From NCBI GenBank assembly GCA_005884195.1, contig VBBP01000047.1, positions 1-50,174 of the forward strand: DNA of 50,174 nucleotides, given 5' to 3'. The translations under genes and the position numbers were made by a program. Position 1 is the first letter of the stretch. Every line of letters starts with the position of its first letter. The notes beneath the pieces were generated by a model that was not told where the DNA came from, made no database searches, and was given only the letters and a program-made list of their open reading frames with translations. Shown here piece by piece: positions 885-50,174 of this stretch. This stretch comes from Candidatus Bathyarchaeota archaeon. Lineage in GTDB: Archaea > Thermoproteota > Bathyarchaeia > 40CM-2-53-6.

Positions 885-1265
885 ATGCAGAGGCTCAGCC
901 CCGCGACAGCCGTCATCTCGATTCTCAGCTTCACCCTTGGAGTCTGGCTGGTCTTCGATGGAGCACGGAAACTAGTCACAGGATACTACACCGGGGAGCA
1001 GACAATAGGACTAGGACCTTGGGCGACACTAGTCTTGGCGATAGGCCTACGACCCTCAGACATGGCCTTCCCTTTCCTCTTCCTCGGGGTACTCTGGATC
1101 GTGAATGGATCTATTATCCTACTTGGATCCAGCACGAGGTACGAGCGCGTCATCGCAATCTCCATTGTCACACTCTTCTATGCTATTCCAGGGACCATCA
1201 TTAGCATAATCACCATATCGTTGTCCTTGAGGGAAAGACGCATCGCGAGACTTGCTGAGGACTAG
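885..1265 (+). CDS. Small integral membrane protein, 126 aa
   Basis: Unrecognised protein with about four hydrophobic segments (residues about 7-24, 43-56, 60-80 and 88-112) and an Arg-rich C-terminal tail (RERRIARLAED). The start is supported by GGAGAAGG placed 2-9 nt before the ATG. It is divergent from the gene at 521-829, and its stop codon overlaps by 4 bp the stop of the converging phosphoesterase gene. No family can be assigned from motifs; it is probably a cytoplasmic-membrane protein with a short cytosolic tail. Confidence 0.65.
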   Translation: MQRLSPATAVISILSFTLGVWLVFDGARKLVTGYYTGEQTIGLGPWATLVLAIGLRPSDMAFPFLFLGVLWIVNGSIILLGSSTRYERVIAISIVTLFYAIPGTIISIITISLSLRERRIARLAED

Positions 1266-2662
1266 CTACCGGACTGGTTCCTTGTTCGTTTCGCGTGTTT
1301 GAGTTTCGCCCGCGCTCTGATCGTTAGAAGGGTAAGCGAGGCAAGCAGCCCTATGATTCCGCCGATGATGATCAGCCATACGCTGTTCGAAAGTCCGAGA
1401 AATGTGTCCCCCGAGGCAGCCTTGACCGTGATTGTCTGAGAACTAGTGGCAGTCTGGGGAGGTGTAGACGAGTCCGTCACATTTTCAGTCACGGTGAAGG
1501 ATTGAGCGCTGGCGTAGATGTGAGTGACAGATGCTCCAGTCCCAGTTGCCCCATCACCAAAATTCCAGCTGAAACTGTACGGTGATGTCCCACTGGCTGT
1601 GCTCGCTGTAAAAGTGACTGTTGTATTCACCAGGGGATTGATTGGTGAGACGGCAAAGCTTGTCGATATTGGTTGTGTCGTTGCTGACCCAAAGAATTCG
1701 GTCATGGGATTCGCGCTTGCGTCATTCGAGGTGAGTGAACTCAGGCCCCAGACTGTTTCCAGGGTCTTGAGGTATGAATAGTGGCTGTAGGAACCGGTTC
1801 CGACGTATCCCGTTTTCACAACAGGACCAGACCAAGAACCATAGACGAAGTCATGGGGGTAGTTATCATTTCCTTCATCATACTGAATCCATAGAGCAGC
1901 TTTCTTCGTAGTGAAGAGAGTGCTGCCCAAAATCTGAGGCACTAGCGTCTTCAAGTAGTTGTCGCAAAAACTCATCGTCGAACTATGACAGTTGTTAGAA
2001 TCGTTAGGAGTCAACCAGATATAATTCGCTGGAGTAGGTGAATTCAGTTCAGCGAGAAACGCGGTATCTGAGGACGCAGCTGTTGAGAGAAGATGGCTGC
2101 ATCTTGCAGTATTCGTCTGTATATCAGTGAAAGTAATGAACGCATAATGGTCTCCCCCGCGGGGGGGCTGCGCGTTACAAGTTCCAGAGCCTGATCCGCC
2201 CTCATACCATGCATCCCATGTTCTTCCAGATGCTTCAATCCTATCGATGATGTTCAATGCGCTTGTTCTCCCAGGGCAATAACCGCAATCATTTGTGAAT
2301 CCATAGTCATCTCCTGCAATCAGTTGCACGTAGTTACCTTCACTTGGATGGTCTACTGCTGTATATCCACCTATAGAGCAGGATGAATCGCTTTGACAAG
2401 TTCCGGCTAGTCCGTACGTTGTCGCAAGCGAGGTTTGATAGGTTCCGCCGCCTCCGCAAGTGGTTATGACTTCGCAAAAGCCATTGTTCTCCATCAGTAT
2501 GGTGACTATGTAGTCGAACGATGCACCGGAAGGGGCGAGGATTAGGCTATGACTGTGAGACTGGTCAGTCGAAGTCGCCAGTGGAGCGACTAGGGAGCCT
2601 AGTAAGACAAGACTACAAATCAGCATTGCTTTGATTCCGGCAAAACAGGGTTTCTCGGTCAA
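1262..2662 (-). CDS. Secreted, membrane-anchored phosphoesterase with one PKD domain
   Basis: 466 aa. A signal peptide (about 1-32) is followed by a phosphoesterase domain (about 45-325) of the phospholipase C/acid phosphatase superfamily. Supporting motifs are the N-terminal MENNGF metal-site motif (E58, N59), DHYAF (D171, H172) and YDEGN (D262, E263). One PKD domain follows (about 332-414, containing WNFGDG), then a single transmembrane helix (about 426-448) and a basic cytosolic tail. Family members hydrolyse phosphate mono- or diesters outside the cell; the substrate here is unknown. The start is TTG, aligned with the paralogue at 2748-6404, with GAGG about 12 nt upstream. It lies directly downstream of that paralogue, which shares long stretches of near-identical DNA. 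The neighbouring phosphate permeases make organic-phosphate scavenging a reasonable inference. Confidence 0.85.
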   Translation of the reverse strand: MTEKPCFAGIKAMLICSLVLLGSLVAPLATSTDQSHSHSLILAPSGASFDYIVTILMENNGFCEVITTCGGGGTYQTSLATTYGLAGTCQSDSSCSIGGYTAVDHPSEGNYVQLIAGDDYGFTNDCGYCPGRTSALNIIDRIEASGRTWDAWYEGGSGSGTCNAQPPRGGDHYAFITFTDIQTNTARCSHLLSTAASSDTAFLAELNSPTPANYIWLTPNDSNNCHSSTMSFCDNYLKTLVPQILGSTLFTTKKAALWIQYDEGNDNYPHDFVYGSWSGPVVKTGYVGTGSYSHYSYLKTLETVWGLSSLTSNDASANPMTEFFGSATTQPISTSFAVSPINPLVNTTVTFTASTASGTSPYSFSWNFGDGATGTGASVTHIYASAQSFTVTENVTDSSTPPQTATSSQTITVKAASGDTFLGLSNSVWLIIIGGIIGLLASLTLLTIRARAKLKHAKRTRNQSGS

Positions 2663-2747
2663 TTGGTCTAGCTGCCTCTTCGAACTTTGACCTCAGCAGC
2701 TTTGTGCTGCCTTCCGGGATTTAATGGTCCCGGCTTTTTTCCGGTCT

Positions 2748-5700
2748 TCAATTTCGTAGGCGTCGTTTCGTTCGCTCTAGACTCGTCCGAGCCTTTATTG
2801 TGAGAGCGGCAAGGGCGCTGACAAGCCCGAGAAGTCCCCCGATTGCCAGGAGCGAGATTGTGGGAGAGACCTTTGGTATTATTCCGCATAGTGTGCAGCT
2901 TCCGTTCGAGCCTCCACTTGAGCCTCCGCTTCCACCGTTAGACCCTCCGGGAGCGGCTTGGTTTACTTGAATTCCTATTGGTTTGCTTGTTGGTGTGGAT
3001 GGATCGCTGCTGTCCGTGGCCGTGAAAACGATGGTATGGGATCCTGTCTGGCTTGAGCTGGGTTTCCAAGAGAAGGCCCCGGTTGTTGGGTTGAAGTTTG
3101 CGCCTGTTGGTAGGCCTGTTGCCGAGAGGGTTACACTTCCTCCTGTGTTGGCTGAGGTGCTTGTAATTGTGAAGTTGATCCAGGTTCCGGTTGGTGCGGT
3201 CTGATTGCTTGGGACCGTTAGTACGGGTGGGAGTAAGGCTTGCACATTAACGGTTATGGTCTGTGAGACACTAGCTTGCGGCGTCGCAGAGTCCGTAACT
3301 GTGACAGTAGCAGCGTAGGAACCCGCGGCATAATAGGTGTGGGTTACACTTTTTCCGCTTCCGGTTCCGCCATCACCGAACGCTACCGTGTAAGTGTACG
3401 GTGTTGTTCCGCCTGTGGCAGAGGTGCTGAAAGTTACTGCTTGCCCAGCTTCGGGGGAAGTTGAGGAGACGCTAAAGGTTGTTGAGAGTGGGAGGCTTGT
3501 GTATACGGTTATGGAGCGAGTGCTGGTCGCGGTCTTCGTTGGAGTGGAAGAATCTGTCGCGGTCTCTGTTACTGTGAACGGTCCGGCCGTTGTGTATCTA
3601 TGGGTAGTTGTGGCTCCGGTGCCTGTTGTCCCATCGCCGAAGTTCCAGCTGATAGCGTAGGGTAGCGCTCCGCCCGTCGTTACTGCCGTGAATGTGACTG
3701 GCGAGTTTACGAGCGGTGTGGCGGGGAGGAAAGTGAAGCTAGTCGACAATGGTGGGGTCGGCTGGACAGTCACTGTCTTGGAGCCGGTCGCACTCTGGGA
3801 AGGTGAAGACGAGTCGGTCGCGGTTTCAGTTACCGTAAAGGATTGAACACTGGCGAAGGTATGAACGATCGAGGCTCCTGTTCCCGATGATCCATCACCG
3901 AAATTCCAAGTTACAGAGTATGGAGCCGTTCCTCCTGTTGTAGTAGCAGTGAACGTCACGGGTGTGTTTACGATTGGACTTGTTGGTTGGAATGTGAAGC
4001 TGGTTGACGGTGGAGGTGGCATAGAGATCCCTACTGTCTTGGAACTGGTGGCTGTCTGGGCTGGTGTAGACGAATCTGTCGCAGTCTCTGTCACAGTGAA
4101 TGATTGAGCTGTCGTGTAAGTATGGGTGACTGTAGAGCCCGTACCAGTCGTGCCATCCCCGTAGTTCCAGCTAGTAGTGTAGGGTGACGTTCCGCCCAAG
4201 GTTGTGGCGGTGAAAGTTACCGGCGTGTTCACTATAGGGTTGCTGGGTGAGACCGTGAAGCTTGTCGACAGTGGGATGGAGCCTACGTTGAGGTTGACTG
4301 TGTACCAGTCAACGTTGACCGAGTTTACGAGGTAGCCTTCCGTTCCGATTTCAACTCCTTTCAGGGTACATTGAGTGTTTGCCGGAAGTCCCCACGCAGC
4401 AAGATCGCCCTGGCAAAGCTGCGTAACACCGGCTGTGAGTATTCCTGACTGTCCCGGATTTATTTGTAAGGTGACAATGTCCCAGCCGAAAGAGTCTCCG
4501 GGGTCGTAGGTGGCTGTGCTTCCGAGAGGGCTATCAACTCCGTTAATATTCTCGACGCGCGACTGCGTATCCAACCAAGAGTAGGTTGTGCCTCCTGACG
4601 TTGACGAGGGAACCTGATAGTAGAGCGCAACGTAGAGGTGGTATCTAGAGCCAGAGAGAAGGTCTCTGCTCAGAAAGTTGAACGATACTGTAACGCTTGT
4701 TATCCCAGAGGGAAGGGCAGCACCAACTGTCGAGCCCCACGGGAAACTGCCTCTTTGAGCGGTGCAGTAGCCGTAGCTGTTTGGCCCGCCCCCGGATGTT
4801 GACTGTCGCGTCTGCAGGACCCCGTTGGAGATCGTCTCTGTGCCTCCTGGACAGTTGTTGATGTACCAAGTGTTGCCGAAGTTCCCTGTGAGCGATGATG
4901 ATACGACTACGGTGTGAGTGGCCGACGCGGTTTGCTTTGGTGAGGACGAATCCGTCACCGTCTCCACCACCGTGAACGATTGGGCCGCAGTATAGGTGTG
5001 AGTCGCCGTCGCGCCTGTTGCGATTGCGCCGTCGCCGAAGTCCCAGCTACCAGCGTACGGTAGCGTTCCACCTGTCGTTACCGCAGTGAACGACACGAGA
5101 GAGTTCACCACCGGAGTCGCGGGAAGAAACGTAAAGCTTGCCGACAACGGTAATGACGTGACGACTGTTACTGTCTGAGAGCTGGTCGAGGTCTGGGACG
5201 GAGATGCAGAGTCTGTCGCAGTCTCTGTAACGCTGAAGGATCCCGGGCTGGCATAGGTGTGGGCGACTGAAGCTCCTGACCCAGATCCGCCGTCTCCAAA
5301 ATTCCAGTTGAGGCTGTACGGTGGTGTCCCACCACTTGTGGTCGCTGTGAAAATGACTGGTACGTTAACCACCGGAGTACTAGGTGAGATAGTGAAACTT
5401 GTGGACAATGTCGGAGGTGTTACTGAGCCGAAGAACTCTGTCATAGGGGCCGCGTTTGCGTCATTCGAGGTGAGTGAACTCAGGCCCCAGACTGTTTCCA
5501 GGGTCTTGAGGTATGAATAGTGGCTGTAGGAACCGGTTCCAACGTATCCTGTTTTCACAACTGGACCTGACCAAGAACCATAAATGAAGTCATGTGGGTA
5601 GCTGTCATTTCCCTCATCATACTGAATCCACAAGGCTGCCTTCTTAGTCGTAAAGAGGGTGCTGGTCAGAATCTTTGGTACAAGTGTTTTCAGGTAGTTG

Positions 5701-6404
5701 TCACAGAAGCTCATCGCTGTGTCGTGGCAGTTGTTTGAATCGGTAGGAGTCAACCAGATATAATTCGCTGGCGTAGCTGAGTTCAATTCGGCGAGAAACT
5801 GTGTATCTGTTGATGCTGTTGTTGAGAGAAGATGGCTACATCTTGCAGTATTCGTTTGTATGTCGGTGAAAGTAATAAACGCATAGTGGTCTCCTCCACG
5901 CGGTGGGTTTGCATTACAGGTTCCAGAGCCTGATCCGCCCTCATACCATGCATCCCATGTTCTTCCTGATGCCTCAATCCTATCGATGATGTTCAATGCG
6001 CTTGTTCGACCAGGGCAATAACCGCAATCATTTGTGAATCCATAGTCGTTCCCTGCAATCAGTTGCACGTAGTTACCTTCACTCGGATGGTCTACTGCTG
6101 TATATCCGCCAGTAGAACAGGATGAATCGCTCTGGCATGTTCCAGCTAATCCATACGCTGCAGCAAGTGATGTTTGATAGGGTCCACCGCCACCGCAAGT
6201 GGTGATGACTTCACAGTAGCCGTTGTTCTCCATTAGTATGGTGACTACGTAGTCGAAAGTTGCGCCCGATGGGGCGAGGATGACGCTATGATTGTGAGAC
6301 TGATTGGGGGAAGCTGCTATTGGGGCGGCTGCGAGTGATCCTAGCAAGACAAAGCTGCAAATCAGGATTATCTTGATTCTGACAAACGAGGGTTTCTTCG
6401 ACAA
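2748..6404 (-). CDS. Large surface phosphoesterase with six PKD domains
   Basis: About 1218 aa from the TTG at 6404; a second TTG four codons upstream (6416) is possible. The 6404 choice matches the start of the paralogue and leaves GGAGG 12 nt upstream. In numbering from 6416: signal peptide (about 10-35), phosphoesterase domain (about 45-335; E63, N64, D176, H177, D267, E268), two PKD domains (338-418, 424-505), a unique beta-rich block with Cys and Trp (about 508-712), four more PKD domains (716-797, 804-884, 890-971, 976-1057), a putative Ig-like domain (1062-1152), a Gly/Ser linker (1157-1171) and a C-terminal membrane helix (about 1185-1207) with a basic tail. The enzyme head would be held away from the cell on a stalk of beta-sandwich domains. 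Substrate unknown. Confidence 0.85.
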   Translation of the reverse strand: MSKKPSFVRIKIILICSFVLLGSLAAAPIAASPNQSHNHSVILAPSGATFDYVVTILMENNGYCEVITTCGGGGPYQTSLAAAYGLAGTCQSDSSCSTGGYTAVDHPSEGNYVQLIAGNDYGFTNDCGYCPGRTSALNIIDRIEASGRTWDAWYEGGSGSGTCNANPPRGGDHYAFITFTDIQTNTARCSHLLSTTASTDTQFLAELNSATPANYIWLTPTDSNNCHDTAMSFCDNYLKTLVPKILTSTLFTTKKAALWIQYDEGNDSYPHDFIYGSWSGPVVKTGYVGTGSYSHYSYLKTLETVWGLSSLTSNDANAAPMTEFFGSVTPPTLSTSFTISPSTPVVNVPVIFTATTSGGTPPYSLNWNFGDGGSGSGASVAHTYASPGSFSVTETATDSASPSQTSTSSQTVTVVTSLPLSASFTFLPATPVVNSLVSFTAVTTGGTLPYAGSWDFGDGAIATGATATHTYTAAQSFTVVETVTDSSSPKQTASATHTVVVSSSLTGNFGNTWYINNCPGGTETISNGVLQTRQSTSGGGPNSYGYCTAQRGSFPWGSTVGAALPSGITSVTVSFNFLSRDLLSGSRYHLYVALYYQVPSSTSGGTTYSWLDTQSRVENINGVDSPLGSTATYDPGDSFGWDIVTLQINPGQSGILTAGVTQLCQGDLAAWGLPANTQCTLKGVEIGTEGYLVNSVNVDWYTVNLNVGSIPLSTSFTVSPSNPIVNTPVTFTATTLGGTSPYTTSWNYGDGTTGTGSTVTHTYTTAQSFTVTETATDSSTPAQTATSSKTVGISMPPPPSTSFTFQPTSPIVNTPVTFTATTTGGTAPYSVTWNFGDGSSGTGASIVHTFASVQSFTVTETATDSSSPSQSATGSKTVTVQPTPPLSTSFTFLPATPLVNSPVTFTAVTTGGALPYAISWNFGDGTTGTGATTTHRYTTAGPFTVTETATDSSTPTKTATSTRSITVYTSLPLSTTFSVSSTSPEAGQAVTFSTSATGGTTPYTYTVAFGDGGTGSGKSVTHTYYAAGSYAATVTVTDSATPQASVSQTITVNVQALLPPVLTVPSNQTAPTGTWINFTITSTSANTGGSVTLSATGLPTGANFNPTTGAFSWKPSSSQTGSHTIVFTATDSSDPSTPTSKPIGIQVNQAAPGGSNGGSGGSSGGSNGSCTLCGIIPKVSPTISLLAIGGLLGLVSALAALTIKARTSLERTKRRLRN

Positions 6405-6416
6405 CTTTCCTAACAA

Positions 6417-23663: not shown

Positions 23664-24149
23664 CTGGGAATTGTTCTATCCGCGCTACTTTTCATTGGGC
23701 CCTCATACGTGGCGAACGCTGCGCCTCTTCTCTTCGGTGGCGGGGCTCCGCTGGATGCGGGAAAGAACTTTCTGGATGGTCAGAGGATCTTTGGTGCACA
23801 CAAGACAGTCCGCGGATTGTTTGCTGGGATCATCGCGGGGTCGGCGATTGGACTTGCAGAATCACCAGTCGACAGTCATCTCTTGCTCGGGGGCTTTTTG
23901 ATCGCGTTGGGAGCCGTTCTTGGGGATCTGCTGGGCGCGTTTTTCAAGAGGCGTGTCGGGGTAGAGCCAGGGAACCCGCTGCCGGTTGTGGACCAACTGG
24001 ATTTCGTGTTCGGAGGCCTGATCCTCGGACAACTGGTCTTTCAGTTGAGTTGGTGGTCGGTCTTGGTTGTGGTATTGGTGACTCCGCCGATTCATCTAGG
24101 AACGAATTATGGAGCGTACTTGCTGGGGATCAAGAGGACGCGCTGGTAG
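23664..24149 (+). CDS. carS: CDP-archaeol synthase, probable non-canonical start
   Basis: Integral membrane enzyme that makes CDP-archaeol from CTP and unsaturated archaetidic acid, a step in archaeal lipid synthesis. Motifs are APLLFGGGAPLDAGKNFLDGQRIFGAHKTVRG and, later, FFKRRVGVEPGNPLPVVDQLDF. The first ATG, GTG or TTG in frame is a GTG at 23709, which would cut off the conserved first membrane helix. The frame is open upstream and encodes exactly that helix, GIVLSALLFIGPSYVANAAP. No ATG, GTG or TTG lies between the upstream stop (23643) and 23709. A CTG at 23664 with AGGG nine nt upstream is the best candidate, giving 161 aa, a normal length. The 3' end overlaps the antisense tnpB frame. 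Confidence 0.82.
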   Translation: MGIVLSALLFIGPSYVANAAPLLFGGGAPLDAGKNFLDGQRIFGAHKTVRGLFAGIIAGSAIGLAESPVDSHLLLGGFLIALGAVLGDLLGAFFKRRVGVEPGNPLPVVDQLDFVFGGLILGQLVFQLSWWSVLVVVLVTPPIHLGTNYGAYLLGIKRTRW

Positions 24150-25355
24150 GCGCGTTCTCGTCTCTGCAGGTTCTGTTAAGTCTTCGTTGGATCGGTTGGA
24201 CCTAACTTGCCTCCATCGACTTTGAGGGTTAGGGTCGCGTTCTCCCGGTTCCCGTTCCTCTACCATTGCTTCACCTGGAGGCCCGTTGGGGCTGAACCTC
24301 AGCCCTCCCGCGGCAAGGTTTCTAGCCGCGTTCTCGTCCCTGTCTAGCACGGTTCCGCAGTGTGGACACCATAGTCTTCGTTGGGTGCTCTCTAGGGTCT
24401 TGTACCCGCATATTGAGCACCGTTTGGATGTGTCTCTAGCAGGAACGTAGATTACTCGGACGCCTTCCCATCGTGCCTTGTACTCTATCTGTCGTTGTAG
24501 CTCTCCATAGCTCCAGCTGTTCATCCTCGCCCGATAGTTTCTGCTTTGGGAATTGCCTTTGCGATAGAGTCTTCTTATCCCAGTCAGCCTCTCGAGGACA
24601 ATCCCTTGCCGTTTTGATTTCGCTTCCTCAACTATGCTCTTGGACACGTTGTGGAGTAGTGGTTGTACACGGTTCCGCTGCTTCTCTCCATACTTGGAGA
24701 AGACTCGTGTTCTTGTTCTGATGTCGTTCCTCTTGAATCTGCTCTTGACATATCGATAATCAGCCTTGATCCGGGTCGCTTTCGAGAGGTCGAATGTTTT
24801 GACCGTCCCGTCTGTTGATGCAATTGTGATGTTGTCTAGGTTAAGGTCTATCCCCACGTATCCTTCCGGCTCGGTCTCGACCGTCTCTTTGGAGTAGCTT
24901 ATGGTTAGCAGGTCTGGGGTCAGCGTGACGGAGTGGACGCTGAGCCCTGAGAGGACCTGGAGCGTGTGATTGTTCAGCCTAACATAGCTATACTGTCGCG
25001 GTCTGACCGGCAGTCTGAGGAGACCATTCTGTATCTTGAACCCGTAACAGGTGGTCAGCATCAGCTTCCTAGCATACGGAAACCTTGTCCGAGGATTCTT
25101 CTTCCTGGTCTTCCGATAGTTGCGAAGTATTCCGGTAGCTGCGCTGATCGCGCAGAGCCGGTAGTAGCCGAGGATGCCACGGCTTAGACGATGGTACGAT
25201 CTCAACGAGAGAGTCTTGAGACTGGAAACGTTCTCTTCCATTCCAACAGCGATACAGACGTTCACCATACGCCTGAACTCGTTCAGTAGCCGTAGTAGAT
25301 CGGCTGAGGCCTCATGCTTCTGTCTGACCGTCTTCACCACCCGCACCCTGGACAC
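24096..25355 (-). CDS. tnpB: TnpB, IS200/IS605-family RNA-guided nuclease
   Basis: 419 aa. The RuvC catalytic residues appear intact: D170 in GIDLNLDN, E255 in VLERLTGI, and D338 in LDRDENAARN. The zinc ribbon has C313, C316, C330 and C333. The N-terminal half carries the usual helical and beta wedge regions. TnpB proteins are transposon-encoded RNA-guided DNA endonucleases whose guide (omega RNA) comes from the 3' end of the transcript. No tnpA is present. The GTG start at 25355 is followed by the usual basic N-terminus. The last 17 residues (LPARPLDPQQ...) are read antisense through the end of carS, so the frame lacks a stop within the element. Confidence 0.93.
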   Translation of the reverse strand: MSRVRVVKTVRQKHEASADLLRLLNEFRRMVNVCIAVGMEENVSSLKTLSLRSYHRLSRGILGYYRLCAISAATGILRNYRKTRKKNPRTRFPYARKLMLTTCYGFKIQNGLLRLPVRPRQYSYVRLNNHTLQVLSGLSVHSVTLTPDLLTISYSKETVETEPEGYVGIDLNLDNITIASTDGTVKTFDLSKATRIKADYRYVKSRFKRNDIRTRTRVFSKYGEKQRNRVQPLLHNVSKSIVEEAKSKRQGIVLERLTGIRRLYRKGNSQSRNYRARMNSWSYGELQRQIEYKARWEGVRVIYVPARDTSKRCSICGYKTLESTQRRLWCPHCGTVLDRDENAARNLAAGGLRFSPNGPPGEAMVEEREPGERDPNPQSRWRQVRSNRSNEDLTEPAETRTRLPARPLDPQQVRSIIRS

Positions 25356-47450: not shown

Positions 47451-47623
47451 CCCAGTTGAAGGTAGAGGTCGGGTGCTTCCCTCTGCAGTTTCTCCCTAAC
47501 TGACCTCGCGAATGAAATCAGACTGATTTTGGTCGGCAGCTTTGTTCCCGAATGGACCTGGAAAAAATACTCTGACTCACTCGGCTCGGATGGCTCTCAC
47601 AACTTCACCGTATCCGACAACGG

Positions 47624-48520
47624 TCAGGCTGACGATGAAGGGGACTTGACCCTGATCTTCTTGTGCCCGCGGGCTTTCGAGGGGACCCACTCGCCATCCT
47701 TGGTCCGCTTGTAGCTTTCATTGTAGTATTGTCCAAAGTCGCTGGGGTTGAGGAGGGCGTCTGCTGGTACTAGAGCGCCCCAACCTCGCCCTCTCATGAA
47801 GATCTCATTGAAATCCGGATTGTGGATTAGATCCTTTGAGTTGTCGGGACGGTCGTGCCACACTTCCATGTCGAGTATACGCAGGGCTTCTCCCTGATCC
47901 GCGATCAGTTGGGAAGCATCATCCGGCCCCGTTGGCTTTCCTATCAGGTCCCCCCGATGGACGGCGATTTCTTTGTCGTTGAATCTGAGGGTTCCCGACC
48001 CTTCGAGAATCAGATAGTATTCGTCGACTTCGCTGTGGCTGTGTAATCGAGCGGACGACTCGCCATTTTCGATCACTTCGACCCTAAAGGCAGTCCGGCC
48101 GGGACCGAGCAATGGCATGAGGAACCGTGTATAGTATCCTTCCCGTTTCCTCGTTAGCGAACGTTCAGACCCGTCCAGCCTAGTATCATCAAGAACGTTC
48201 ACGACAGGCTTTCTCCAGAGGTTCTCTGAAAGCACCCCGTCCTTCTTCAGGTAAACTTCGTTTGACCAGAAAGATACGAGACGTAACAAGAAATCCATTC
48301 CCTGCTCGCTTAGAGAAGGTATCGTCAGAGTTAGCTCACTGCTGGAGTTCCGGTTCAGGTTTCCTGCTTTCTTGCCAAGCTCGTCCCAGAGCCAATTTGT
48401 AAACGGTATTAGTCTTCCGCCGTGTCCTTCAGGGATCGTTGGCTTCTCAAAGAATAGAGTCCAGGCCAAGTCTACTCTTATCGCCTTTTCACGGATGGCT
48501 TCCTCGAGGATCAGCTTCAT
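47624..48520 (-). CDS. Cupin-domain protein, 298 aa
   Basis: The cupin core is at about 155-200: ARLHSHSEVDEYYLILEGSGTLRFNDKEIAVHRGDLIGKPTG, with the HxH...E...(later Pro-Thr-Gly) metal-site pattern. It is preceded by an N-terminal domain of about 140 residues (RLIPFTNWLWDELGKKAGN...) that I do not recognise and followed by a charged tail ending in KKIRVKSPSSSA. Cupins act as metal-dependent isomerases or dioxygenases, or as sensors; the activity here is unknown. Start ATG at 48520. Confidence 0.8.
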   Translation of the reverse strand: MKLILEEAIREKAIRVDLAWTLFFEKPTIPEGHGGRLIPFTNWLWDELGKKAGNLNRNSSSELTLTIPSLSEQGMDFLLRLVSFWSNEVYLKKDGVLSENLWRKPVVNVLDDTRLDGSERSLTRKREGYYTRFLMPLLGPGRTAFRVEVIENGESSARLHSHSEVDEYYLILEGSGTLRFNDKEIAVHRGDLIGKPTGPDDASQLIADQGEALRILDMEVWHDRPDNSKDLIHNPDFNEIFMRGRGWGALVPADALLNPSDFGQYYNESYKRTKDGEWVPSKARGHKKIRVKSPSSSA

Positions 48521-48622: not shown

Positions 48623-50174
48623 ATGTCAGAATCCGAAGGCACTGACATCATACCTGCACCGAGCAGCATCGTGCGCGCACCTTCAGAAATCACCACGGTA
48701 AATTCAAGCCTGGCCAAATCGGCCATCCCGAGCGCGGATAAGCTGGCGAAGGTTACCTACTGGAAGCTCGACCTCGACACTATCCTGGATGGATTGATTC
48801 CTGATCCGCTTCCAGAGTCGAGCGGTAAGGACAATGCCATTCACCATTTGAACATCATAATATTCGGAAAACCAAACACAGGTAAGTGCTTGACCGGCGA
48901 TGATGTGGTGCCGACAACTGATGGTTCCATCGTGCGTGTCGACAATCTTCATCCGGGACTCGAGGTGTTTTCGGTTGACGAGAACTTCAGACTCGTCAAG
49001 GACAAAATAGTCGCGGTGGCATCCAATGGCGTAAAGGATGTTTTCAGAGTCAAACTAAGCGATGGCCGACAAATCAAGTTGACCTCGAACCATCCATTGC
49101 TAACGGCTTATGGCTGGAAACAGTTGTCCGATCTGCACGAGGGAATGCCAGTAGCTGTTCCAAGATTCCTTCCAGTTCAAGGCAAGCACCTCAACCATGA
49201 TGCGGCCAAAGTTCTAGGCTATCTAATCGCGGAGGAAGGTCTTACCGGCATCACTCCAAGGTTCACGAACGCGGATCAGACGATTATCGTTGATATGGGA
49301 AGGGCATTAGCACCGTTCGGGTTACAATTGAGCGAGCCTATACAACAAATCAACTACAATGTCGTGCAGATCAAGCCGGGCCAGCCATTTAGGACCGACG
49401 ACCCGCGCCATCAGCCGTATGGATACTACAAGCGGTTCGCCGATGAGTTTGGTCTTCAGAGGGTTGACTCACGCGGAAAGAGAATCCCTCAACCAGTTTT
49501 GCGTGCAGACAACGAGTCTCTCGCAGTTTTTCTGAGTGCTTTGTTCGCTGGAGACGGGTGGGTGGACATGCGTGGTAACATAGGTTATGGGACAATATCT
49601 CCCGTTCTTGCGCATCAGGTTCAACACTGCCTTCTCAGATTCGGGATATTGAGTAAGCTTCGTAGAGGCGTGCGAGCTCTAGCATGGGACCGCGAGCGGC
49701 GGATTGTCTCGTACGAGGTATGGGTCCCGTTAGAATATCGACAGAAATTCGAGCAACACATTGCACTACCCGAAAGAAAGGTCCTAGAAGGCGCAGACGC
49801 GGTGTCCCAGCATGAGCCTCGGCAGGTCCGTAGATGGAGCCAGGATGACTTTCCACTTCCTATCGCGTATTTGGGGTCAGGACGCGATCGGCCAGGTGCA
49901 TGGTCTGGCGGAGCATATGCGAGCATGAAAGAGGCTCAGGAGTTCGCCCGAAAGTACGAGCGTCCGTACACTCTGAAAATCGCTGAGGGCGAATGCTTCT
50001 GGCCGCGAATCAGATCCATTGAGTATGTCGGCCCCGCTCAGACTTTTGATGTTCAAGTCGAAAAGACTGGAAATTTGGTCGTCAACGACATTTTTGTCCA
50101 TAATACTACTTTGTCGGAGTCGATTGCTCAAGCGTTAGCAAAAAGATACGGGCAGGAGAACGTGAAGGCCCTTC
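48623..50174 (+). CDS. P-loop ATPase with intein, 5' part
   Basis: The frame runs from ATG 48623 to the right edge without a stop, 517 codons visible. The N-extein has 88 residues: a Ser/Pro-rich start (about 1-45), then VTYWKLDLDTILDGLIPDPLPES and a beta strand leading into FGKPNTGK, the first half of a Walker A motif. The intein (residues 89-494) follows, and the C-extein resumes with TTLSESIAQALAKRYGQENV, completing G-K-T-T. So splicing is needed to form a nucleotide-binding ATPase. The rest of the ATPase is beyond the window, so its family cannot be named; AAA- or MoxR-like proteins are possible. No ribosome binding site is obvious. Confidence 0.85.
   Translation, partial: MSESEGTDIIPAPSSIVRAPSEITTVNSSLAKSAIPSADKLAKVTYWKLDLDTILDGLIPDPLPESSGKDNAIHHLNIIIFGKPNTGKCLTGDDVVPTTDGSIVRVDNLHPGLEVFSVDENFRLVKDKIVAVASNGVKDVFRVKLSDGRQIKLTSNHPLLTAYGWKQLSDLHEGMPVAVPRFLPVQGKHLNHDAAKVLGYLIAEEGLTGITPRFTNADQTIIVDMGRALAPFGLQLSEPIQQINYNVVQIKPGQPFRTDDPRHQPYGYYKRFADEFGLQRVDSRGKRIPQPVLRADNESLAVFLSALFAGDGWVDMRGNIGYGTISPVLAHQVQHCLLRFGILSKLRRGVRALAWDRERRIVSYEVWVPLEYRQKFEQHIALPERKVLEGADAVSQHEPRQVRRWSQDDFPLPIAYLGSGRDRPGAWSGGAYASMKEAQEFARKYERPYTLKIAEGECFWPRIRSIEYVGPAQTFDVQVEKTGNLVVNDIFVHNTTLSESIAQALAKRYGQENVKAL
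48887..50104 (+). other. Intein with LAGLIDADG homing endonuclease, in Walker A
   Basis: 406 aa, starting with Cys (CLTGDD, block A) and ending VHN followed by Thr (+1). Block B has TSNHPLLTAYGWKQL with the T-x2-H pattern. Two dodecapeptide motifs of the homing endonuclease are LGYLIAEEGL (about 20 codons after block B) and LSALFAGDGWV. Block F-like AQTFDVQVEK and the C-terminal NDIFVHN (block G) are present, with the penultimate His and final Asn needed for cyclisation. All splice-site residues look intact (C1, H405, N406, T+1), so both splicing and endonuclease activity are expected. The endonuclease would cut an intein-less copy of the same ATPase gene. Confidence 0.9.

Follow-up and report, generated by a model that had tools for sequence, protein, structure and literature searches.

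The locus at the right-hand end of this DNA raises the question of what splits the Walker A loop of an ATPase gene and whether the insert is still on the move. The window, meaning the whole stretch of 50,174 nucleotides that was analyzed, comes from a soil Bathyarchaeia MAG (G000), and its last open reading frame, with an ATG at 48623, stays open up to the window end at 50174. This frame contains a real, intact, evidently mobile intein, which is of the known P-loop class and sits in a new host gene. Its features, all on the + strand, are as follows (a slash within a motif marks an insertion point throughout).

48623-48886 (+): N-extein, 88 aa, with Walker A GKPNTGK at its end; from the ORF and a gapless alignment to intein-free orthologues
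48887-50104 (+): class 1 intein, 406 aa, with LAGLIDADG homing endonuclease; from PF14890, PF14528, TIGR01445, TIGR01443 and exact empty sites
48887-48889 (+): Cys1, block A splice nucleophile; from the sequence, invariant across four inteins
49082-49093 (+): block B TSNH, Thr66-His69; from the sequence, His69 invariant across four inteins
49208-49240 (+): LAGLIDADG motif 1, KVLGYLIAEEG, with acidic Glu116; from the four-intein alignment
49529-49567 (+): LAGLIDADG motif 2, FLSALFAGDGWVD, with acidic Asp223; from the PF14528 match (residues 212-292) and the alignment
50099-50104 (+): block G His405-Asn406, the next codon being Thr+1, the Walker A Thr; from the sequence
50105-50174 (+): start of the C-extein, TTLSESIAQAL...; from the overlap of contigs C9 and C37 and from G013 gene order on one contig

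The first-pass annotation had placed an intein at 48887-50104, between GKPNTGK and TTLSESI, and the ORF, the domain matches and exact empty sites in relatives all bear this out. The intein starts at residue 89 of the ORF, begins with CLTGDD and ends with DIFVHN ahead of TTLSESI. Its insertion point, where the Walker A Lys is parted from the Thr (GKPNTGK/T), is the site that the literature terms the classic P-loop insertion (PMC5050341). Both Pfam matches, to PF14890 (Intein_splicing; 64.5 bits, cutoff 35.8) and PF14528 (LAGLIDADG_3; 49.3 bits, cutoff 22.5), are well clear of their thresholds, and the NCBIfam models intein_Nterm and intein_Cterm are also matched above curated cutoffs. Cys1, the terminal Asn406 and Thr+1 are all present, and by its sequence the element is a class 1 homing-endonuclease intein at a P-loop K/T site. 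The claim that every block residue is visible was right for Cys1, Thr66 and His69 (the TxxH of block B, here TSNH at 66-69), Asp388 of block F, His405 and Asn406, but not for the usual block F His, which is replaced by Gly395. Gly occupies this place, 11 residues before the terminal Asn, in all three carriers described below and in the intein of locus L086, as well as in a ribonucleotide-reductase intein of the same genus. The block F His is not strictly required in every intein; its replacement could slow splicing. The two LAGLIDADG motifs are visible as claimed, with Glu116 and Asp223 kept in all four inteins of the alignment (the three carriers plus the L086 intein).

The element is thus very probably a P-loop homing intein in a tail-anchored AAA-type ATPase that splices and homes into empty alleles; the anatomy, empty sites, divergence and selection on which this reading draws are direct observations. 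During splicing, Cys1 would attack the Lys-Cys bond, Thr+1, which is the Walker A Thr itself, would receive the N-extein, and cyclization of Asn406 would yield an ATPase of 363 aa in which the GKPNTGKT loop is continuous. Until then, to judge from the position of the insertion, the precursor would be unable to bind nucleotide. The endonuclease would cut intein-free alleles at the P-loop codons, and repair would copy the intein in.

Intein-bearing and intein-free alleles exist side by side in the genus. The intein is present in G000 and in two further soil Bathyarchaeota MAGs, BA_22 (G013) and BA_23 (G014), and exact empty sites, with GKPNTGK[TS]TL unbroken, are found in five same-genus genomes (G003, G004, G005, G008 and G016). 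Intein-free soil Bathyarchaeota MAGs are BA_2, BA_12, 13_1_40CM_3_52_10 and 13_2_20CM_2_53_6. Joining 48886 to 50105 restores the unbroken sequence of the five orthologues, in which the junction is exact.

The intein is also less diverged than the gene around it. Between G013 and G014, dS is 0.21 in the intein (bootstrap 0.15-0.27) versus 1.12 in the extein (0.86-1.51); the corresponding values are 0.51 versus 1.05 for G000-G014 and 0.54 versus 0.83 for G000-G013. The extein tree pairs G000 with G013 as sisters, whereas it places G014 with the intein-free G004 and G005, and a single carrier clade is rejected (p-AU 0.007 for protein, 0.033 for DNA). Since the intein is less diverged than the extein and its carriers do not form one clade, it has moved between lineages independently of the host gene. 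Endonuclease cutting followed by repair copying is the proposed reason why this movement would be more recent than the divergence of the surrounding gene. Silent divergence between G013 and G014 is 0.22 and 0.31 in the two 15-codon stretches that flank the site, below most outer windows; this is the pattern expected from co-conversion, although these values are noisy and equally low divergence is seen in one outer window. Cdc48 exteins of the same genomes have a dS of only 0.39-0.46, so either the silent sites of the ATPase gene change fast or the gene has itself been exchanged. Exchange of the whole gene could therefore account for part of the contrast between intein and extein, but the within-gene contrast still stands. 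Two further patterns were seen among inteins of these genomes. Silent divergence in intein residues 181-315 (window 49427-49831) is below that of most of the remaining intein in all three pairs (0.03-0.09 versus 0.14-0.32 elsewhere for G013-G014), which may reflect internal gene conversion or constraint. The Cdc48 intein of G013, G014 and G000 (L142, L143 and L144, respectively) also looks recently mobile, with a G000-G013 dS of 0.06 versus 0.40 in its extein.

Purifying selection acts on the endonuclease domain and, strongly, on the splicing region: dN/dS is 0.11-0.13 for the intein as a whole, 0.13-0.22 for the endonuclease region and 0.06-0.08 for the splicing region. Together, selection and divergence suggest that the intein splices and homed recently, and the idea of a live, mobile element is well supported by the dS contrast, the extein tree and the empty sites. 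The strong selection on the splicing region would also suit a regulatory switch, in which conditional splicing (in response to redox, temperature or DNA) holds the ATPase off until a signal arrives and this benefit, not homing, retains the intein. Conditional splicing has been published for P-loop or ATPase-domain inteins, namely M. smegmatis DnaBi1 (PMC6195587) and P. horikoshii RadA (PMC5790916). Such a switch is nonetheless unlikely here: the intein is distributed patchily within a single genus and five orthologues lack it, which speaks against a required switch, and the purifying selection seen on the endonuclease is in line with homing. Still less probable is a decaying, vertically inherited relic that spliced once, has a dead endonuclease and left empty sites through loss. 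The sister relationship and conserved gene order of G000 and G013 agree with vertical descent; however, the intein dS lies well under that of the extein, G014 falls among intein-free genomes, and the endonuclease keeps both acidic residues along with its low dN/dS.

The host gene can be followed past the edge of the window, which stops inside the C-extein, 70 bp beyond the intein end. The remainder lies on contig C37 of the same assembly (L003 386-1213), giving a C-extein of 275 aa, a spliced protein of 363 aa and an unspliced protein of 769 aa in G000. The end of the window contig (C9) overlaps the start of C37 over 455 bases with five mismatches, two of which alter the intein (Gly to Asp and Thr to Ala); two intein alleles therefore probably coexist in the sampled population. 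In G013, the full precursor (773 codons) is on a single contig, flanked as in G000 by the left neighbors of the window gene (a cupin and others) and the right neighbor on C37 (glutamate-synthase-like), and the join of C9 to C37 is thus correct. Although the contig break and the overlap mismatches could hint at an assembly or binning artefact that wrongly joined the intein or its flanks, this is dismissed as next to impossible, because uninterrupted precursors occur in G013 and G014, which come from other samples, and G013 keeps the gene order of the window on both sides.

Other features of the window were noted in passing. What looks like the remains of a small membrane protein, with the ending LVGSFVPEWTWKKYS, lies at 47466-47711 (+); longer versions are found close to the ATPase gene of G014, G016 and G004. 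By eye only, an ORF at 24096-25355 (-) resembles an IS200/IS605 TnpB, with a C-terminal zinc ribbon (CSICGY...CPHCG), and 1262-6416 (-) encodes two neighboring secreted proteins that closely resemble each other, the larger of which has several PKD-like repeats.

The first-pass annotation called the exteins unrecognized, which was overstated. The host protein matches Pfam AAA (PF00004) at 25.3 bits (cutoff 21.2); the match spans just residues 78-153, and none of the libraries searched gave a named subfamily. At least eight genomes of the genus have an orthologue, and distant relatives (25-30%) turn up sporadically in Bathyarchaeia outside the genus and in further parts of the phylum. Besides Walker A, the protein has a Walker-B-like motif, LLFADDMT, and ends in a hydrophobic helix resembling a membrane anchor. 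Structure predictions for an intein-free orthologue and for the intein were too poor for use (pLDDT 49.8 and 32.7); Foldseek, queried with the host model, returned nothing but generic AAA/F1 P-loop matches whose TM-scores did not exceed about 0.3, and no fold is claimed for this reason. A host-family profile run against PDB sequences found mainly the P-loops of many ATPases.

Several relatives of the host have neighbors that hint at a viral origin. Some distant relatives adjoin integrase-like or ParB-like genes, as in G451 and G498, and a terminase-like gene lies near the host gene in G003 and G016. The context in G000 and G013 is ordinary-looking chromosome (cupin, glutamate-synthase-like), and a scan of viral contigs with host and intein returned no matches. 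A membrane-anchored ATPase of mobile-element descent is the best guess for the host, held with low confidence. The terminase-large-subunit-like genes near the intein-free ATPase (L062:9379-10833, - strand, in G016; L061:12450-13922, + strand, in G003) match PHROGs at 1e-35 to 1e-37, and G003 has an integrase-like ORF at its contig start as well, a possible provirus remnant. In G014, the end helix of a downstream surface-type protein (L060:14055-14996, +), SGVLAILYLVYYYVWTLIPK, is nearly identical to the C-terminal membrane tail of the ATPase, possibly through tail duplication.

The proposal of a new insertion context was correct as to the host gene but not as to the kind of site, the K/T P-loop position being textbook already. 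The locus adds an uncatalogued host to a well-studied intein class. In the literature searched, inteins and Bathyarchaeota or Bathyarchaeia were co-mentioned in a single paper, on Thermococcales viruses; inteins of Bathyarchaeia thus seem little described. With natural alleles that carry or lack the intein, and an intein younger than the gene around it, this soil genus offers a ready system for testing homing, and also for asking whether inteins of the P-loop class can pass from one ATPase to an unrelated one.

The nearest other intein found lies in another Bathyarchaeia family (G255, locus L086), is 32-35% identical over its full length (E 4.5e-46) and shares the K/T site, the C-terminal block TGNLVVND[IV]FVHN and the endonuclease motifs. 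Its host, however, is an unrelated ATPase (GMTQLSGK/TTTLEA) without a Pfam match, orthologues of which have an empty site in G256, G251, G253 and G252. Other inteins of the genus, in genes reading as Cdc48, RNR, MCM and endonuclease IV, match the window intein weakly (about 30-43% over short stretches). One speculative and rather doubtful extension is that this lineage is a P-loop specialist whose endonuclease would read codons common to unrelated ATPases (GGNAAR/ACNAC), would thereby cross between non-homologous Bathyarchaeia ATPases, and here would gate a membrane-anchored, perhaps mobile-element-derived ATPase.

That P-loops are a known target, as the annotation stated, agrees with both this intein and its phage relatives. 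Five of six phage inteins inspected among its weaker relatives follow a Walker-A-type Lys (TerL GRRIGK/T, RecA GKPGGGK/S, two helicases TNGGK/T and a DnaB-like GGLK/S), and one phage protein does not. Compared by site, the mycobacteriophage intein TerL1-a is alike, as it too separates the invariant Walker A Lys from the nucleophilic Thr (PMC5050341). However, the six phage inteins are only ~22-25% identical and their host proteins are unrelated, and the window intein resides on an archaeal chromosome. The best solved-structure and NCBIfam matches (4.5e-12 and 3.5e-39) are to mycobacterial and cyanobacterial DnaB inteins (PDB 6frg and 1mi8; NCBIfam PRK07773). M. smegmatis DnaBi1 is likewise located in the DnaB P-loop (PMC6195587), but is a class 3 mini-intein without an endonuclease, whereas the window intein has both Cys1, as in class 1, and an endonuclease.
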